A stretch of 50,013 bases of DNA from Planctomycetota bacterium (lineage in GTDB: Bacteria; Planctomycetota; Phycisphaerae; FEN-1346). Of the stretch, positions 9,816 to 48,303 are shown in pieces (the first letter of the stretch is position 1; each line of letters begins with the position of its first letter). Position numbers and translations under genes: made by a program. The notes beneath the pieces were generated by a model. That model saw only the letters and a program-made list of their open reading frames with translations, made no database searches and was not told the origin of the DNA. Location: positions 1 through 50,013 of the forward strand of contig VGYT01000003.1 of assembly GCA_016872895.1 (NCBI GenBank), read 5' to 3'.

Positions 9816-9854
9816 CGCCTGCCGCTGTCTTGTTGGTGCGGCCCGTGTCCCGGG

Positions 9855-9927
9855 CCCCACGCACCGCGTGGGGATGGATGGTGCGGGCCGTTTATCCCCC
9901 GGCGGCGCCGGGGGCTTTGAACCATGC
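9855..9927 (+). repeat. Dispersed repeat family 1, copy B (left end missing)
   Basis: The copy contains hairpin 1 (CCCCACGC-ACC-GCGTGGGG, 9855-9873), the linker ggatggtgcgggccg, hairpin 2 (CCCCCGGC-GGC-GCCGGGGG, 9896-9914) and the right terminal repeat TTTGAACCATGC (9916-9927). The left terminal repeat is absent. Its right end fuses directly to the middle of a NifX-like coding sequence. Confidence 0.85.
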
Positions 9928-10080
9928 GCCAACTGCGGGCCGAAGGCGTTCCGCGTCCTGGCGGCGGCCGGCATCAAGGTCTTCCTCGGGGCGACGGGGA
10001 CGGTTGGCGAGGCCGTGGCGGCATTCAAGGAAGGGCGGCTCGCCGAGGCCGCCGAAGCCAACGTCGAAGGGCATTGGTAG
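9928..10080 (+). pseudogene. C-terminal half of a NifX/NifB-type cofactor protein, joined to repeat B
   Basis: About 50 residues survive: NCGPKAFRVLAAAGIKVFLG, ATGTVGEAVAAFKEGRL and the terminal VEGHW. This is the standard C-terminus of the small dinitrogenase iron-molybdenum cofactor biosynthesis family (COG1433). The N-terminal half is replaced by repeat copy B. The frame stays open leftward through the repeat (to ATG 9766), so a chimeric peptide could be made, but the conserved N-terminal strand is missing. In related genomes such genes sit next to Mrp ATPases, as here. Confidence 0.75.
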
Positions 10081-31982: not shown

Positions 31983-32035
31983 AAGGAGAATGTTGAATAT
32001 TGAATATTCAATATTTCACATTCAACATTCTCCTT
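31983..32035. repeat. AT-rich palindromic repeat, copy 1
   Basis: Outer 16-bp arms (AAGGAGAATGTTGAAT and its complement) flank an inner palindrome ATTGAATATTCAAT. It is strikingly AT-rich in a GC-rich genome. The sulfatase gene ending at 32008 finishes inside it, the repeat encoding the last residues MLNVKY and the stop. A second copy is at 38795-38842. Confidence 0.85.
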
Positions 32036-33615
32036 CTCTTTTCCCCCTGCACGCCGGGGCCGTAAGCGGGGTTGGGCTTCGGGAGGACCGCACCGGAGTC
32101 CTTCAGGAATCCTTCGATGAGGGCATCGAGTTCCTTCACCCGGTCGGGCATCTCGTCGGCGAGGTTGGCGGTCTCGCCGACGTCGGTCTTGAGGTTGTAC
32201 AACTCGTAACGGTGGGCGAAGTTCGGGCCGTCGTGGAAGATGCGGATGAGTTTCCAGTCGCCCTTGCGCACATAGACCGACGGCAGCGCCCCCGTGGCGG
32301 GCGTTGAGTGGGGGAAGAAGCAGAAGATAGCCTCGCGCGGCAGGCGGTCCGCCCCGCGCAGCACGGGCACTATGCTCGTGCCGTCGAACTTCAGCCCTTC
32401 CCTGGCCTTAAGGTCGAGCATGTCGAGGATCGTCGGGTAGAAGTCGATGCTCTGGATAACGGCGTCGCTCTTTGCGCCGGGCTTCACCTGGCCGGGCCAG
32501 ATGACGATGCACGGCACGCGTGTGCCGCCCTCGTAGATCGTGGCCTTCCCGCCGCGGAGGGGGGCGTTGCTCGTGATCGGGATGCGCGTGAGTTCGTCTT
32601 CGTTGCCCGTGCCCTTGTGCCCGGTCCAATGGACGCCGCCGTTATCGGAGAAGAAGACGACGATGGTGCTCTCGGCCAGGCCGAGTTCGTCGAGCGCGTC
32701 GAGGAGGCGCCCGACGGCGTCGTCCATGCTCCGGACCATGGCAGCATAAAGCGCGTTGCGCTGGGGGTTCTTCGGGTCGGCCTTAGTGCGATATTTCTCG
32801 ATATACTCCTTCTTGGCGTCGAACGGCGAGTGGACCGAGAAGCACCAGTAGGTCATGAAGAACCGGCGGTCCTTGTTCTCCTTGAGGAACTTCACGGCCT
32901 CGGCGGCCATGCGGTCTTCGATGTGCTCGCCCGGCGGGCCCGTGAAGTTCAACCTGGCCGGGAACTTCCACGGCGCGATGTAACTTCCGGCGGGGCCGGG
33001 GCCGCCCCAGTGCGGCACGTCCGCGTCGTAACCCTGGTGGAGCGGGTCGTACGGCTCCTGCCCCAGGTGCCACTTGCCGAAGTGGCCCGTGCGGTAGCCG
33101 GCATCGTGCAGGGCCTCGGCCAGGGTGCAGTACTCGTGCTTCAGGCGCGTGGCGCTCGCGCAACTGAGGACCTTCACCTCGGGCGAGCCGCGCTCGCCGA
33201 CGGTTTCCTCGAACTTCTCCTCCGGCAGATGGCAGGCCGGCGCGGTGATGCCGATGCGGGCGGGCCAAAGGCCCGTCTGGATGCTCGCCCGGGTGGGCGA
33301 ACAGAGCGGGTTGGCCGCATAGGCGTTGGTGAACATCATGCCGCGCTTGGCCATGCGCTCGACGTTCGGCGTTTCGTAGAACGTGCTGCCGTAGAGCGAC
33401 GTGTCGCGCCAGCCGAGGTCGTCGGCAAGGATGAAGAGAAGGTTCGGCCTGCTCGCGGGCGGCGCGGCGGCCGCGTCGCCGGGGGGTGCTGTGCTTTCGC
33501 TTGCGAAAGCATGGGCCCGGCGCCCGGCGACCATGCTTTCGCGAAGGCGCGAAAGCATGGCCCCCGCGGCGGCCGCCGCTGCGCCCGCCGCGATGAGAAA
33601 TTCGCGTCGGTCCAC
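32008..33615 (-). CDS. Secreted type I sulfatase A
   Basis: A 535-residue sulfatase (Cys-type, needs formylglycine). GTG 33615 begins [16 protein letters not shown], a Tat signal, 1 nt after the stop of sulfatase B; GGAGG lies 11 nt upstream. Active-site landmarks: [11 protein letters not shown], formylglycine signature [27 protein letters not shown]. The segment after the Tat hydrophobic stretch (about residues 19-45, [20 protein letters not shown]) is encoded by a dispersed hairpin repeat (33492-33560) and has no counterpart in the other sulfatases. The C-terminus is also altered, the last residues coming from the AT-rich repeat. The core domain itself looks intact. Confidence 0.92.
33492..33560 (-). 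repeat. Dispersed twin-hairpin repeat family 2, copy 1, inside sulfatase A
   Basis: Two hairpins: TGCTTTCGC-tt-GCGAAAGCA (33492-33511) and a 13-bp stem CCATGCTTTCGCG-aagg-CGCGAAAGCATGG (33531-33560), separated by a GC-rich spacer. The second copy (38698-38768, opposite orientation) has the same two stems. The repeat is translated in frame in the sulfatase. Confidence 0.88.
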
Positions 33616-33616
33616 G

Positions 33617-35071
33617 TTACGGATTGCCTCCGCCCTTTTTCTGTTTCGCCTTGGCCGCCTTGGGCTTTTCACCTTGCGGCTGCCTGGAGAAAAAGTCCAG
33701 GTTCACTTCCGCCGGCCTCGGATTGGCAACTTCCAGCGGCAGCGTGTCGCCGAACCGCTTCTGCTCGGCGGCCATGAGCGCCATCAGTTCTTTCACCTTC
33801 TCGGCGTGGGCCGGGGCGCCGGCGAGGTCCTTGATCTCGCGCGGGTCGGCCTGGAGGTCGAAAAGTTGGGTCTTGTTGACCTGGGGGTACCGGATGAGTT
33901 TCCACTGCCCGCGACGGACGGCGCGCTGGAACTCCTTGTACCCGAGGAGGACCGCGTCGCGGACGCCCTCGGCCTTGCCCTGCATGACGGCAAGGAGGCT
34001 CTTGCCGTCGATCTGGGCGGGGGCCTTTGCGCCGGTGAGTTCGCAAATCGTCGGGTAGATGTCGAAATGGTACGCGAGGGCGTCGGACGCCTTCCCCTGC
34101 GGCACGCCCGGTCCCGCGAAGATGACGGGCACTTTCATCGAGTCCTCGTAAAGGTTCTGCTTGCCCATGAGGCCGTGGCTGCCGATGGCCACACCCTGGT
34201 CGCCGGTGAAAACGAAGATGGTGTTGTCGAACTCTCCGACGTCCTTAAGGGCCTGGAAGATGCGGCCGATCTGGGCGTCGAGGCAGGTGATGTCGGCGTA
34301 GTAGTCGCGGAGTTCGCGGCGGACGGCATCCTCGGTGCGCGGCCAGGGCAGGAGCCTCTCGTCGCGGACGAGAAGTTCGCCGTTATCGAAGGGGTGGAAC
34401 GGCAGATAGTTCGGCGGCAGGGGCATCTTCGCCACATCGTACCTGTCGAGGAACTCCTTCGGGGCGACCCGCGGGTCGTGCGGATGAGGCGGCGCAAGGT
34501 GCATGAAGAACGGCTGCGCTGCGCCGGCGTCCCGCTGCTTCTTCCACTCCTGGAGGTAGGCGATGACGCCGTCGGCCATCTCCTTGCCGGGAACAACGCC
34601 CTCCCCCTTGCGGTTGTCGAAGTTCTCCGACTCGAAGACCTTCAGGACCGGCGTATCGTTGTTGCCGGCCTTGCCGAGGAAGAACGTGGCGTAGCCGGCC
34701 TCGTTCATCGTCTTCGGGAAGTTCTGCTCCTGCCACTGCTCCCTGAATCGCGGCGCAAGCCAGGAGCGGCCCCTGAGGATCATCTGCCGCGCGGGCAGGC
34801 ACACCGCCCCGCTGTATCCGCCCTGGCAGTAGGCCTGGCGGAAGGTGAAGCCGCGGTTAACGAGGGCGTCGAGGTTCGGCGTCTGGATGTGCGGGTTGCC
34901 GAGGGCGGCGATGGTGTCGCCGCGCTGATCGTCGGTCAGCAGCACGACGACGTTCGGCCGCCGGCGCGGGCCGGCCTCCGCCCCGCGGAGCGCTCGCGGC
35001 AGCGCCATCGCCGCCGCACCCATGCCGAGGCGCTTCAGGAACTCGCGCCGCTTGACGTTCTGGATATCCAT
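33617..35071 (-). CDS. Secreted type I sulfatase B
   Basis: A 484-residue sulfatase; ATG 35071 follows GGGAG. The Tat signal is [19 protein letters not shown]. Landmarks: [12 protein letters not shown], signature VCLPARQM (CxPxR), [17 protein letters not shown], and FTGDQG where most family members have SDNG. The usual GKWH is FLGKAGN, so one catalytic-region histidine is not in its usual place. This pattern is closer to choline- or iduronate-type sulfatases than to arylsulfatases. The C-terminal tail is Lys-rich. Its stop abuts the start of sulfatase A by one base, so translation is probably coupled. Confidence 0.9.
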
Positions 35072-35190
35072 GCGTTCTCCCTTCTTCCAGATGACTCCGT
35101 AGCGCTGCCCATCCTCGCCGGATAGAACGGCCCGTTACGCTCCGTGTCGGCCGGGCCGACGGTTGCCGCCCTGCGGCCGCGGACGGGGCG

Positions 35191-36693
35191 TCACTGCTTT
35201 CTCTTCGCCTTGGCCTTGGCCGGCTTGTTCGCCTGGCCCTCGACCTTCTCGTCGGAGGCGTCTTCGCCGCGCCCCGACCCCTGGCGCGACTTGGCCTTGA
35301 GTTCCGTTTCCATGCCCTTGTCGCCCTGCTGCGCCATCCAGGCATCGAGTTCGCGGGCGAGGCGGGCCTTGATGTCGGCGAACTTCGGGTCCTCGGCCAG
35401 GTTCTTCATGTCGTACGGGTCGGCCTGGAGGTCGTAGAGTTCCTCGGCGGGCCGGTGCGAGAGCCACTTGACCCATTCGGCCAGCCGCGGGTCTTTCACG
35501 GCATCCTCTTCCCAGGATTTGAAAATGGCCGTGCCGTGGATTCCGGCAATCCAGTACGTGTTGCTCGGCGCAAGGTTGCGAACCAGTTTGTAGCGCCCAT
35601 CGCAGACCGAGCGCATCGGGTACGGCTCCTTGTAGCCGATGATGCCCACGGTGGTGTGCTGCGCGAAGACGTAATCGCGGAGCCTGTCGGCCTTGCCGAG
35701 CAGCACCGCCAGGAAACTGCGGCCGTCGAAGCCGCGGCTGCCGTTGGCGTCGGGGCAGCCGGTGTCGATCTTCGTCGGGTCGGCGCCGGCGGCTTCGAGG
35801 AACGTTGGCGGCACGTCAACGTACTGCATGAGCGCATCGCTGGCGGAGCCGGGCCTGATCTTGCCCGGCCATCGGGCGAATGTGGCGACCCGGATGCCGT
35901 TGTCGTAGAGCGACCACTTGCCGCCGCACGGGAACGAACTGCCTTGCTCGCTCACGAAGAGAACGAGCGTGTTATTGGCCTGGCCGGATTCCTCGACCGC
36001 CTTCAGACACGCGCCCACTTGCGTGTCGAGTTGCGTGATCTCGGCGTAATATTCCGCGAGGTTCTTGCGGGTCACGGCGTTGTCGTGCAGGTACGGCGGG
36101 ATCTTGAGGACGTCGGGCCTGTGAAGGTCCCGCGGACCGCGGGTCCAGGGCGAGTGCGGGTCGTGCGACGCCAAGACCGCCAGCCAGGGCTGCGATCTGT
36201 CGCGCGTGATGAAGGCGGCAAAGGCCTCGGCGTTGTCGGGGCTGGAGTGGATGTACTCCCACGGAAACGTGGCCGGCGGCCCGACGTGCGTCTTGCCCTG
36301 CAAGCCCACGCGGTACCCCAGCGCCTTCAGGTGCGTGAAGATGCTGGCCGTGCCGTCGTAGGCCCGCGTGTGGTTCGGGTACGCGCCGCTTCGGACGGGG
36401 AACAGGCCGGTGTAGAGCGCGTGGCGGCAAGGCGAGCAGGTGGGCGCCGGCGTGTACATGGCGCGCAGCGTCATGCCGTCGCGCGCCAGGCGGTCGATGT
36501 TCGGCGACTTGACGTCGGGGTTGCCCATGCAGCCGAGGTCGTGCAGGTTCAGGTCGTCGGCAATCAGGAGGAGAAAGTTGGGCCGCGCGCCCGTCGGCGC
36601 TGCCGCCCGGGACCACCGCGGGAGCACGAGCGCCGCCGCGCCCACGGCCGCATATCTCAGGAAGTCCCGCCGCTTGACGGTTTGGGCACCCAT
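35191..36693 (-). CDS. Secreted type I sulfatase C
   Basis: A 500-residue sulfatase. ATG 36693 (AAAGGAG upstream) starts MGAQTVKRRDFLRYAAVGAA, a Tat signal. Landmarks: LLLIADDLNLHD, signature TCSPCRHA, LQGKTHVG, SHDPHSPW and VSEQGSSFPCGGKW. It belongs to the sulfatase group with EQG instead of DNG, often called heparan-N-sulfatase-like. A highly charged 45-residue C-terminal tail (KAKSRQGSGRGEDASDEK) may be disordered. Substrate unknown. Confidence 0.9.
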   Translation of the reverse strand: MGAQTVKRRDFLRYAAVGAAALVLPRWSRAAAPTGARPNFLLLIADDLNLHDLGCMGNPDVKSPNIDRLARDGMTLRAMYTPAPTCSPCRHALYTGLFPVRSGAYPNHTRAYDGTASIFTHLKALGYRVGLQGKTHVGPPATFPWEYIHSSPDNAEAFAAFITRDRSQPWLAVLASHDPHSPWTRGPRDLHRPDVLKIPPYLHDNAVTRKNLAEYYAEITQLDTQVGACLKAVEESGQANNTLVLFVSEQGSSFPCGGKWSLYDNGIRVATFARWPGKIRPGSASDALMQYVDVPPTFLEAAGADPTKIDTGCPDANGSRGFDGRSFLAVLLGKADRLRDYVFAQHTTVGIIGYKEPYPMRSVCDGRYKLVRNLAPSNTYWIAGIHGTAIFKSWEEDAVKDPRLAEWVKWLSHRPAEELYDLQADPYDMKNLAEDPKFADIKARLARELDAWMAQQGDKGMETELKAKSRQGSGRGEDASDEKVEGQANKPAKAKAKRKQ

Positions 36694-36737
36694 GCGTTGT
36701 CGCTCCTTTAAGGCGGCTCCGCAACAGCGCCGATCCC

Positions 36738-36875
36738 AGTGCTCTGTCATACGTCAACTGAGGGGCGGCATGGTCACCCTGTTGGGTGACCATGTGGCGC
36801 CCTCGGTGCACATGGCCACGCAACAGCGTGGCCATGCCACCCGGCCACTCATCGTTTCACGTTTGACAGAGCACT
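36738..36875. repeat. Twin-hairpin element with 12-bp outer inverted repeats (family 3)
   Basis: Outer arms AGTGCTCTGTCA (36738-36749) and TGACAGAGCACT (36864-36875) are perfect complements. Inside are two 11-bp hairpins: CATGGTCACCC-tgtt-GGGTGACCATG (36769-36794) and CATGGCCACGC-aaca-GCGTGGCCATG (36811-36836). The loops TGTT and AACA are complementary to each other. It fills the gap between sulfatases D and C. Confidence 0.88.
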
Positions 36876-36942
36876 CGCCTGGTGGAACGGCCTGCCGCGC
36901 CCGCTATTGCCCGCGCCGGCCTTGCCCGCCTTGCCGCGGCTC

Positions 36943-38598
36943 TTATTTGCCGGCTGCCGATGGCGCCGCATCGCCGGTGGCCGTGATACGGAACTCCTCC
37001 GCCGCGCGGGTCCAGCGTTCGGCCAGATCCCGGACCTTCTCGGGCTGCTTGTCGGCCAGGTTGCTGGATTCCGAGCGGTCGTAGCGCAGGTCGTAGAGTT
37101 CCCACGGCCCGGCAGCGCCGTCGGCCACGAGTTTCCAGTCGCCCACGCGGATGGCGCGATTGCCCGAGTGGCACCACCAGAGATACTCGTGCGCAACCGC
37201 CCCGTCGCTCGCCAAGGCCGGCACAAGACTTACGCCGGGCGGCGGCGGAACGGGCTTGCCTTCCCACTGCTCCGGCCGGCGGCCGCCGGCCAGTTCCAGC
37301 ATCGTCGGCGCCAGGTCGATGAAGTGGCACACGTCGCGACGCCACTCGCCGCGCGCCCGGATGCCCGCGGGCCAATGGACGATGAGCGGCGACGAAATGC
37401 CCCCCTCGTGCACCCACACCTTGTGGAGCCTGAGCGGCGTGTTGCACGCCGTGGACCAGCCCGGCCCGAGGCAGAGATACGACTTCGCCGAGCCCGGCGT
37501 CGCGGCGGGGTCGTGCCCGTCGCCCCGGATCATCTGTTCGGCGCTGGCCCCGTTGTCGGAGACGAAGAAGAGGACCGTGTTCTCGCAGGCGTTCATCGCC
37601 TTGAGTTGATCCAGGACGCGGCCGATCTCGCGGTCGACGCGGTCGATCATCGCGGCGTGGATGGCCATCTTGGTCGCCTGAAACCGCTTCTGCTCGTCCG
37701 TCAGTTGCTCCCACGGGATCGCCTTCGGGACCTCGCCCGGCCCAATCCGTTTCTGCATGTCTTCCGGCTTGAGGTTCCAGCCGGGTATGCTGTCCGGGTC
37801 GGGCTTCGACAGCGGGCAGTTGATGAGGCCCAACTCGGTCATCCGCTTCCAGCGCTTCTGGCGGATGGCATCCCATCCTTCCAGGTAGCGGTCGCGATAG
37901 CGGTCAATGTCCTCCCGGAGCGCCTGGATGGGGAAGTGCGGCTCGGTAAATGCCAGGTACTGGAAGAAAGGACGGTCCGCGTGATTCTCGGCGTGCTCCT
38001 TGAGGTAACGAATGGCGTGGTCCGCAATGGCCGTGCTCGCGTAATAGCCCTCCTCAGGCTTGATGGGTTGGAGCGGCGGGTCGATTGCCGCCATCTTCCT
38101 GGCCGGCAGAAAGTGATGGTCGCTATCGCTGTACTCAAACGCGCGGTCAAAGCCGCCCTGCTGCGGCGTGCCGTCCACATGCCACTTTCCGGAGTGATAG
38201 GTCCGGTAGCCCAGGGGCTTGAGCATCTCCGGCAACAGCCGCGCCCACGCGGGGCGCTTCCCGCCCGCGCCCCCGGCCAGGCCCGGCATCGCATCGCGGC
38301 GGACCTGCTGCGCATAGTAGCCGGTCAGGATGCAGGCCCGCGAGGGCCAGCACCGGGCCGTGGAGTAGCACTGCGTGAACCGGATGCCGCCGGCCGCAAG
38401 GCGGTCCAGATTGGGCGTGGCAATCTCGCCGCCGTAGCAGCCGGCGTCGGAGAATCCCATGTCATCCATCACGATCACGAGGAAGTTCGGCTTGCGGGAC
38501 GGGGCCGTCCCGGCCGCCGCCCGCAGCGCCCACGACGGCACCGCCACCGCGCACGCCCCAAGGCCGGCGAGTTTCAGAAAGTCGCGCCGCGTGGTCAT
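36943..38598 (-). CDS. Secreted type I sulfatase D
   Basis: A 551-residue sulfatase; ATG 38598 begins MTTRRDFLKLAGLGACAVAV, a Tat signal. Landmarks: LVIVMDDMGFSDAG, signature RCWPSRAC, YHSGKWHVDG, TEPHFP and FVSDNGAS. The layout (DDMGFSD-GCYGGEI-TPNLD) matches arylsulfatase A-like enzymes of marine planctomycetes. The frame runs further right to 38820 through repeat DNA, but only this ATG precedes the signal peptide. Ribosome site weak (AAGGGAATCC). Confidence 0.92.
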   Translation of the reverse strand: MTTRRDFLKLAGLGACAVAVPSWALRAAAGTAPSRKPNFLVIVMDDMGFSDAGCYGGEIATPNLDRLAAGGIRFTQCYSTARCWPSRACILTGYYAQQVRRDAMPGLAGGAGGKRPAWARLLPEMLKPLGYRTYHSGKWHVDGTPQQGGFDRAFEYSDSDHHFLPARKMAAIDPPLQPIKPEEGYYASTAIADHAIRYLKEHAENHADRPFFQYLAFTEPHFPIQALREDIDRYRDRYLEGWDAIRQKRWKRMTELGLINCPLSKPDPDSIPGWNLKPEDMQKRIGPGEVPKAIPWEQLTDEQKRFQATKMAIHAAMIDRVDREIGRVLDQLKAMNACENTVLFFVSDNGASAEQMIRGDGHDPAATPGSAKSYLCLGPGWSTACNTPLRLHKVWVHEGGISSPLIVHWPAGIRARGEWRRDVCHFIDLAPTMLELAGGRRPEQWEGKPVPPPPGVSLVPALASDGAVAHEYLWWCHSGNRAIRVGDWKLVADGAAGPWELYDLRYDRSESSNLADKQPEKVRDLAERWTRAAEEFRITATGDAAPSAAGK

Positions 38599-38697
38599 GG
38601 TTGGATTCCCTTTTTTCGATGATCGTGCTGATTGGCCGGAACCGGCACGCTCCGTTTCGGCATGCGAATCTCGCGGCATCCGCGTCGCCGGAGGGTG

Positions 38698-38768
38698 CCA
38701 TGCTTTCGCGCCTTTGCGAAAGCATGGCCGCCGGCCGCAGGACTCATTCTTTCGCAAGCGAAAGCATG
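38698..38768 (+). repeat. Dispersed twin-hairpin repeat family 2, copy 2
   Basis: Hairpins CCATGCTTTCGC-gccttt-GCGAAAGCATGG (38698-38727) and CTTTCGC-aa-GCGAAAG (38749-38764). It is the inverted counterpart of the copy in sulfatase A, here in the gap between sulfatases E and D. Confidence 0.88.
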
Positions 38769-38794
38769 TCACCGGCCGGGTGCAAAAAGGCAAT

Positions 38795-38842
38795 GAGAAT
38801 GTTGAATATTGAATATTCAATATTTCACATTCAATATTCTCC
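38795..38842. repeat. AT-rich palindromic repeat, copy 2
   Basis: GAGAATGTTGAAT...ATTCAATATTCTC with the same inner palindrome as the copy at 31983. It lies 31 bp beyond the stop of sulfatase E. The two copies differ at one base within the right arm (ACATTC versus ATATTC). Confidence 0.85.
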
Positions 38843-38872
38843 TTGCCGTTTGCCGGCCCACGGCGGCCGGGA

Positions 38873-40675
<1,803 letters not shown>

Positions 40676-40721
40676 TTCTCTTCTCCTGGCTGATGCTCGC
40701 GCGGCGATGCGGCCCCTGCCG

Positions 40722-42152
40722 TCATCCGGCCTTCTTGCGTTTCCTGGCGCCGCCTTCGCCGCCTTCTTCGCCGGCGCCCCCGGCAACGGGCTTGGGCAGC
40801 GCGAAACCGATGCCGTTCTTCTGCGGCGCGCCCGGCGTGCTGCGCCCGTTGTCGATGTACTGCTGCATGAGTTTCGCCAGGCGCTCGACCTCGTCGGGGT
40901 TCGCGGCCAGCACGTCCCTGGTCTCGCTCAGGTCGTCCTTCAGGTTGTAGAGTTCGCGTTTGCCGCTCTTGAAGAAAATGAGTTTCCACGGCCCCTGGCG
41001 GATCGCAAGGTCGCCCGCCGACGACTGGTGGACGGTGGCCTCGCGGACGGGCCCCTTCGCGGCGCCCAGGAGGTGCGGCAGGAAACTCACGCTGTCTTCT
41101 CCGGCGCCGTCGGGCAACTTCTCGCCCACGATCTCGGCGCACGTGGCCAGGAGGCCGTTCAGGCAGACCGTGTCCTCGCAAACCGTGCCCGGCCTGATCT
41201 TGCCCGGCCAGCGGGCGACAAACGGTTCGCGGTGCCCGCCCTCGTAGATGCTGCGCTTTGAGCCGCGCAGCGGGGGATACTCGCGGCCCTCGGCGCCGTT
41301 GTCGCTGGAGGCGATGATGAGAGTGTTTTCGGCGAGGCCGCTGCGCTGGAGCGCACCGAGAATCTGGCCGACTACCCAGTCGCCCTCGAAGATCCAGTCG
41401 CCGTAAACGCCCTGGCCGCTCTTGCCTTCGAACTCCTTTGCGGGCACATGCGGCACGTGCGGGATGCTCAGCGGCTGGTAGAGGAAGAACGGCTTGCGGT
41501 CCTTCGCCCGGTCGCCGATGTACTCGGCCGCCTTCCTGGCCATCAGGGGCTGGACCTCGACCGGCTCGAACGTGCCCAGGACGCGGTCATTCTCGATCAC
41601 CGTGCGGATGCTCCGCGCCTCGGTGTAGCCGCAGAAGACGTCGAACCCGCGCGTCGTCGGGCCGTCGGCCACGGGCGCGGCGGCCTTGGCGGCGGCCTCG
41701 GCCTTCACGTCCCCCCAGTTCATACCAAGATGCCACTTGCCAAAACAGGCGGTGTGATAGCCACGCGCCTTGAGCATCGAGGCCACGGTCATGCGCTGCT
41801 TCTCGATGATGGGCTTGGAATTGAAGTTCAGCACGCCGAACTGCCCGATACGGAACGGATAGCGCCCCGTGAGCACTCCGTAGCGCGTGGGCGTGCAAAC
41901 GGCCGCAGCGCAGTGGGCATCGGTGAACCTGACGCCCTCCTGGGCCAGGCGATCCAGGTTCGGCATCTTCAGCGGCGAGTCCTTGCGGAACGTCGGCGGT
42001 TCGCCGTAGCCGAGGTCGTCGAACAGGATGAAGATGATGTTCGGCTTGCCGGCCGCGACACCCTCCGCCGCCGCGAGCCATCGCGGCAGCGCCAGGGCCG
42101 CAGCCCCTGCGGCGGACCACTTCAAGAACTCGCGGCGATTGACGGCGTTCAT
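40722..42152 (-). CDS. Secreted type I sulfatase F
   Basis: A 476-residue sulfatase; ATG 42152 begins [20 protein letters not shown], a Tat signal. Landmarks: [13 protein letters not shown], signature [25 protein letters not shown] and IASSDNGAE. First gene of the six-sulfatase series; sulfatase E follows after 46 bp. The C-terminus is Gly/Lys-rich. Upstream extension to 42416 is not supported by a ribosome site. Confidence 0.92.
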
Positions 42153-45928: not shown

Positions 45929-46002
45929 GGTTCAAACAAGCCCCACGCACCGCGTGGGGATGGATGGTGCGGGCCGATCATCCCCCGGCGGTGCCGGGGG
46001 CT
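45929..46002 (+). repeat. Dispersed repeat family 1, copy C (right end degenerate)
   Basis: Contains GGTTCAAACAAG, hairpin 1 (45941-45959), the linker, and hairpin 2 (CCCCCGGC-GGT-GCCGGGGG, 45982-46000). The right terminal repeat is degraded (ctcaaggc in place of ctttgaaccatgcc). It lies 15 bp before the TMTC-like gene. Confidence 0.85.
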
Positions 46003-48185: not shown

Positions 48186-48200
48186 CAACTGACAAAAACG

Positions 48201-48291
48201 GGCATGGTTCAAACAAGCCCCACGCACCGCGTGGGGATGGATGGTGCGGGCCGATCATCCCCCGGCGGTGCCGGGGGCTTTGAACCATGCC
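48201..48291 (+). repeat. Dispersed repeat family 1, copy D (full length, with apparent target duplication)
   Basis: Perfect 13-bp terminal inverted repeats GGCATGGTTCAAA / TTTGAACCATGCC enclose hairpin 1 (CCCCACGC-ACC-GCGTGGGG), a linker, and hairpin 2 (CCCCCGGC-GGT-GCCGGGGG). The 91-bp element is flanked by CAAAAACG on both sides (48193-48200 and 48292-48299). Confidence 0.92.
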
Positions 48292-48303
48292 CAAAAACGA
48301 ATG

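Follow-up and report, generated by a model that had tools for sequence, protein, structure and literature searches.

A 91-bp structure in the window, by which we mean the whole 50,013-nucleotide stretch analysed here, raises the question of what kind of mobile DNA carries transposon-like ends around a pair of small hairpins. The sequence-only reading had described perfect 13-bp inverted ends enclosing 65 bp, with CAAAAACG on both sides. Re-reading the letters reproduced this arrangement exactly and placed the element itself at 48201-48291. The features of the locus are as follows, with the basis of each in brackets.

48193-48200, no strand: left target-site duplication CAAAAACG, 8 bp (sequence; 8-bp duplications at 32 of 49 copies)
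48201-48213, plus strand: left terminal inverted repeat GGCATGGTTCAAA, 13 bp (sequence, end search)
48215-48238, plus strand: REP-type hairpin 1, AAG CCCCACGC ACC GCGTGGGG AT (pattern search; free-standing relatives)
48239-48256, no strand: spacer between the two REP units (sequence; sister-family comparison)
48257-48280, minus strand: REP-type hairpin 2, AAG CCCCCGGC ACC GCCGGGGG AT, inverted relative to hairpin 1 (pattern search)
48279-48291, minus strand: right terminal inverted repeat, TTTGAACCATGCC on the plus strand (sequence, end search)
48292-48299, no strand: right target-site duplication CAAAAACG (sequence)

The element lies 15 bases past the stop codon of a TPR-protein gene and ahead of a radical-SAM gene. 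This copy matches the consensus at every base and its flanking duplication is perfect, so a recent insertion is probable.

The abundance of the element was evaluated in the window's own genome (G000; 5.07 Mb in 579 contigs, 88.65% complete). The 13-mer end occurred 86 times as an exact match and its reversed control pattern not at all, so the structure is not a chance arrangement. Matches to the whole element were found at approximately 45 further places at 96-100% identity, together with weaker matches. Allowing up to eight substitutions defined a set of 49 full-length places, 22 of which are identical to the window copy. Perfect 8-bp flanking repeats were present at 32 of the 49, and at 37 when one mismatch was accepted. 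By comparison, pairing left and right flanks across different copies gave perfect 8-bp matches in 0.34% of cases, and each of the other repeat lengths (4-7 and 9-13 bp) yielded at most 4 perfect cases among the 49. The duplicated octamers vary from site to site around a palindromic, A/T-centred consensus, SRAWWTYS. Copies lacking a duplication mostly have mutated ends or are rearranged, as in an array on contig C37. At two places (C8 and C378), the order element-duplication-element-duplication forms a tandem pair.

The element is thus short, with perfect 13-bp terminal inverted repeats over 91 bp and no coding capacity, and is present in many dispersed, near-identical copies with duplications of fixed length that vary between sites. 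These copies and duplications, together with a sister family in another genus, support the original interpretation of a non-autonomous transposed element (MITE). A check proposed with it, that other full copies be inspected for duplications, had the expected outcome: each site has its own repeated sequence, nearly always of 8 bp. No empty site was directly observed.

The sister family was found in a genome from another genus of the same family (G004), in answer to a second proposed check, on related planctomycetes. This genome holds six full copies of 90 bp, with 8-bp duplications at four of them; one duplicated octamer, CGAAAATC, is also used in G000. The ends are alike over the first 11 bases, which are those of the left terminal repeat in the window, with point changes in some copies. 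The sister copies have the same pair of stem variants as G000, AC/GT and CG/CG, while the spacer, 22 bases in both families when counted from the GGGG to the CCCC of the stems, has diverged in sequence. Among the 61 genomes searched, the element with GGCATGGTTCA ends was confined to these two genera of one family. In a collection of contigs from 84,980 species, the exact left end of the window's element gave no match, and the sister family was present in a single Planctomycetota MAG, LacPavin_0920_SED3_MAG_68_11, which is G004 by sequence. A looser pattern of the end plus AAGCCCC retrieved 47 stretches from the same collection, 5 of them in the sister-family MAG; of the others, three were read and had no doublet, while the rest were assessed solely by source organism. 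No match to the element was obtained in a plasmid collection. Separately, G006 contains a repeat family of the form GGGTGGCATGGTTCACGCGAAGCGTGACCATG...GCCACCC (L221, L223, L225, L233, L234 and L235, around 1500) with two hairpins inside inverted outer repeats; it has GGCATGGTTCAC in common with the ends of the G004 element.

The interior had been flagged as unusual for a MITE, with two 8-bp hairpins whose loops, ACC and GGT, are complementary. Judged by its sequence, this interior is an inverted pair of REP-type hairpins, that is, a REPIN-like doublet, which accounts for both features. Read on its own strand, each half of the element is AAG-CCCCxxGC-ACC-GCxxGGGG-AT, one half having AC/GT and the other CG/CG as xx/xx. 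The loops are complementary because the same loop lies on opposite strands of an inverted arrangement. Similarly, because the stems differ by paired changes, the small hairpins stay perfect and a hairpin formed by the whole element acquires internal loops at these positions. The two small hairpins are possible as a fold; the minimum-energy structure of the single strand, however, is one long imperfect hairpin in which the two halves pair (-37.2 kcal/mol, z -7.9 for DNA). The fold of the corresponding RNA is likewise very stable (z -8.6).

Hairpins of this type also occur without the inverted ends, singly or as inverted pairs, in G000 and at least four relatives. Matches to the 24-mer hairpin pattern numbered 119 in G000, a count that comes from pattern search, 46 in G001, 35 in G006, 20 in G045, 5 in G025 and 1 in G003; reversed-pattern controls gave none. 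In 84 of 92 end-less hairpins that were fetched, all four free stem positions are paired, in eight paired types (CGGC, CAGC, ACGC, CCGC, CTGC, GCGC, TCGC and TGGC). Only these free positions count as evidence of pairing, since the loci were partly found with a pattern that fixes CCCC, GC and GGGG. An inverted partner lay on the AT side of 52 of the 92 hairpins and on the AAG side of 6, the preferred arrangement having the AT sides inward. In G000, free doublets without ends were found on C67, C24, C32 and C9, and the C67 doublet has CCGATCATCCCCCGGC in common with the spacer and hairpin of the MITE. The spacers of free doublets vary from 4 to 69 bases, and no residual ends are visible. Outside G000, no GGCATGGTTCA ends were found beside REP hairpins in the flanks inspected. 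The interior therefore has several properties of REP sequences: short tagged hairpins (AAG-hairpin-AT) dispersed in six genomes, and inverted doublets in one preferred orientation. The tag departs from the known ones, being AAG preceded by a variable base rather than GTAG or CGTC. The hairpin family extends across several families of the class. Since G001, G006, G045 and G025 have the hairpins and no full-length MITE match, the REP family is more widely distributed than the MITE. A separate observation is a head-to-tail series of five REP-type hairpins with a 34-bp period near a contig end of C75 in G000 (L245, 460-620).

We next consider the enzyme. The sequence-only reading had noted no transposase with these ends in the window; no transposase domain was detected in 30 of the 32 genes predicted there, and no pair of ends encloses one. 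A larger element sharing the ends, whose search had also been proposed, was not found in G000 or G004. Widely spaced end pairs in G000 were absent among the matches listed, at up to one mismatch, and all eight exact 11-mer ends in G004 were located, with those that were read marking no larger element. The ends look similar to those of IS26, and MITEs derived from insertion sequences with 8-bp duplications exist, such as those of the IS6 family. These normally carry remnants of the insertion sequence rather than a REP doublet. An IS6 partner, suggested by the ends and the duplication length, was rejected: the duplication is alike, but no IS6 transposase (PF13610) was detected in G000 or its family. 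Partners of the IS1595, ISL3, IS256 and DDE_Tnp_1 groups were likewise set aside for want of a gene or of such ends. Specifically, PF12762, PF01610 and PF00872 had no match in G000, none of the four DDE_Tnp_1 genes (PF01609) in G000 has such ends, and the single ISL3 gene in G004 is not accompanied by a pair of them. A lone exact end on C362 (GGCATGGTTCAAACAA) was treated as a coincidence rather than a transposon end, as it lies within an open reading frame with no opposite end; by eye, the encoded protein resembles the C-terminus of a serine recombinase. The search comprised five Pfam families and the end searches. The lack of a partner carries little weight because of the incomplete and fragmented state of the assembly. 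The partner may be absent from the assembly, lost, or of a family beyond those searched.

Based on these data, the element is very probably a non-autonomous DNA transposon (MITE) with a REP doublet, or REPIN, as its cargo. The duplications and ends point to a DDE transposase acting in trans: encoded elsewhere, the enzyme would bind the GGCATGGTTCA ends and carry out strand transfer into target DNA with a stagger of 8 bp, the repair of which would generate the 8-bp duplication. With respect to origin, the ends of an insertion sequence may have come to enclose a free-standing REP doublet of the host, for instance after the doublet had inserted into such a sequence and an internal deletion had followed. 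This enclosure would date to an ancestor of the two copy families now in separate genera. The hairpins may be passengers, or they may have been kept because hairpin DNA suits the transposase or the host REP machinery. A further reading, in which the doublet stays competent for single-strand processing by the host REP system while inside the ends used by a DDE transposase, so that the unit could move in two ways, seems to us unlikely. If it held, the hairpins would be under selection, as their stems are alike in two genera and the spacer has diverged, and the unit would connect two types of miniature mobile DNA that are otherwise distinct.

The order of events bears on a simpler proposal, in which the element is simply a MITE with structured ends, and the free hairpins are truncated descendants of it, their ends lost. 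Truncated copies do occur, in the window at 9854-9928 and 45929-46002 and elsewhere in G000, and the direction from MITE to REP has been argued for QMITE2 of Coxiella burnetii (PMC5896051). However, the four relatives without a full-length MITE have many other stem types, and the free doublets, with their variable spacers, bear no trace of ends; we regard this proposal as quite improbable. The doublet preceding the transposon ends is the most economical order, a conclusion that rests on phylogenetic breadth and not on an intermediate, and the opposite order, MITE first, is less likely. The element might instead be kept as a functional RNA or DNA signal, such as a terminator, a stabiliser of mRNA 3' ends or a protein-binding site, with its spread secondary. 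The stability of the RNA fold and the conserved stems beside a diverged spacer are in keeping with such a role, as is the position of 43 of the 49 copies outside genes predicted with a rough codon-usage caller. But no U-run follows the hairpins, and flanking genes occur in all orientations, with only 3 copies between convergent genes versus 12 between divergent ones, which does not favour a terminator. Moreover, 22 copies are identical and have fresh duplications, which points to a burst in the recent past and not to selection over a long period, and all Rfam matches to the element fell below the curated cut-offs. We therefore consider a retained signal very unlikely. Hairpin 1, which we take to resemble a CRISPR type I-E repeat, was dismissed as such a repeat on the grounds that the element's copies are scattered and flanked by 8-bp duplications; regular arrays were seen just twice, as a 98-bp tandem amplification of one copy on C37 and as the 34-bp hairpin array on C75.

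Least probable of all, and in our view close to negligible, is that the whole unit is a REPIN mobilised on single-stranded DNA by a RAYT (Y1 tyrosine transposase), with the outer repeats simply extending the hairpin. The REP doublet inside, the folding of the strand into one long hairpin, and the presence of RAYT genes in G000 (three) and in most relatives are compatible with it. Against it, 8-bp duplications are the rule for this element, and HuH/Y1 transposition is not known to duplicate its target. In addition, none of the three RAYT loci in G000 is flanked by AAGCCCC..GGGGAT hairpins. Extending the scan to 20 RAYT loci in G000, G001, G006, G045, G025 and G004 revealed no AAG-hairpin-AT beside any gene, the nearest MITE-type hairpin being approximately 2.7 kb away (C9 of G025). 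One RAYT gene in G000 (C276; L144, 1059-2092) has GTAG-tagged hairpins around it, GTAGCCCCGGCGT-TTT-ACGCCGGGGATG. We regard this locus as a candidate REPtron: its tag and stem call the MITE hairpin to mind, although its hairpins differ from the AAGCCCC..GGGGAT type.

As a rule, REP doublets and MITEs are assigned to distinct classes of miniature mobile DNA, served by HuH/Y1 and DDE enzymes, respectively. Here, the same hairpin doublet occurs both free and boxed in a DDE-type transposon whose 8-bp duplications are well supported, within a single genome as well as in a sister genus. This offers a natural experiment on two questions: how a MITE can arise from a REP doublet instead of through reduction of an insertion sequence, and whether selection acts on hairpins carried within a transposon. 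The element is a variation on known small mobile DNA, not wholly new, and our literature search found no paper describing it in planctomycetes. QMITE2 is a REP-containing MITE that has terminal inverted repeats and direct repeats of 7-11 nt; its smaller forms are REP elements that lack these ends (PMC5896051). The present element likewise combines terminal inverted repeats, direct repeats and an internal REP, but is 91 bp long with an inverted AAG..AT doublet and 8-bp duplications, whereas QMITE2 measures 150-190 bp and its REP has a GTAG tag. REPINs consist of two inverted REP units, are mostly extragenic, and depend more on spacer length and hairpin capacity than on spacer sequence (PMC3116915). 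The two inverted units with a spacer and the mostly extragenic copies are similar here; REPINs, however, have neither DDE-type ends nor target duplications and are associated with a RAYT, while no cognate RAYT was found for the present REP at the 20 loci. According to the portion of the source available to us, GTAG-15 of Anabaena variabilis and CGTC-1 of H. neapolitanus also enclose a REP dimer in a longer palindrome, as the present element does; they are tagged GTAG or CGTC, and that portion does not describe target duplications, whereas the present element has both an AAG tag and 8-bp duplications (PMC3733652). As far as these accounts go, QMITE2 and the REP dimers inside palindromes are the closest precedents (PMC5896051, PMC3733652).

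Three derivatives of the element were also identified in the window.

669-715, no strand: 47-bp derivative in which the two terminal repeats enclose one hairpin-2 unit (end and sequence searches)
9854-9928, plus strand: truncated copy without the left terminal repeat (end and sequence searches)
45929-46002, plus strand: truncated copy with a partial left end and without the right terminal repeat (pattern search)

The first is a near-perfect palindrome without an 8-bp flanking duplication; recombination or template switching within a full copy is its probable source. The second adjoins a shortened Nitro_FeMo-Co gene that matches only profile positions 59-93 (9854-10080), which suggests a rearrangement at the element. 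The longest frame of the TPR-protein gene has a 5' extension in which the third copy sits; this gene therefore probably starts downstream, at about 46080. Elsewhere in G000, the C37 array (L048, 16940-17340) consists of four 98-bp units in tandem; every unit combines a right-truncated MITE with the flank GCAGGTTGTTCGCG, and the array is a local amplification of one insertion. Finally, the window contains six consecutive sulfatase genes on the minus strand (32008-42152).
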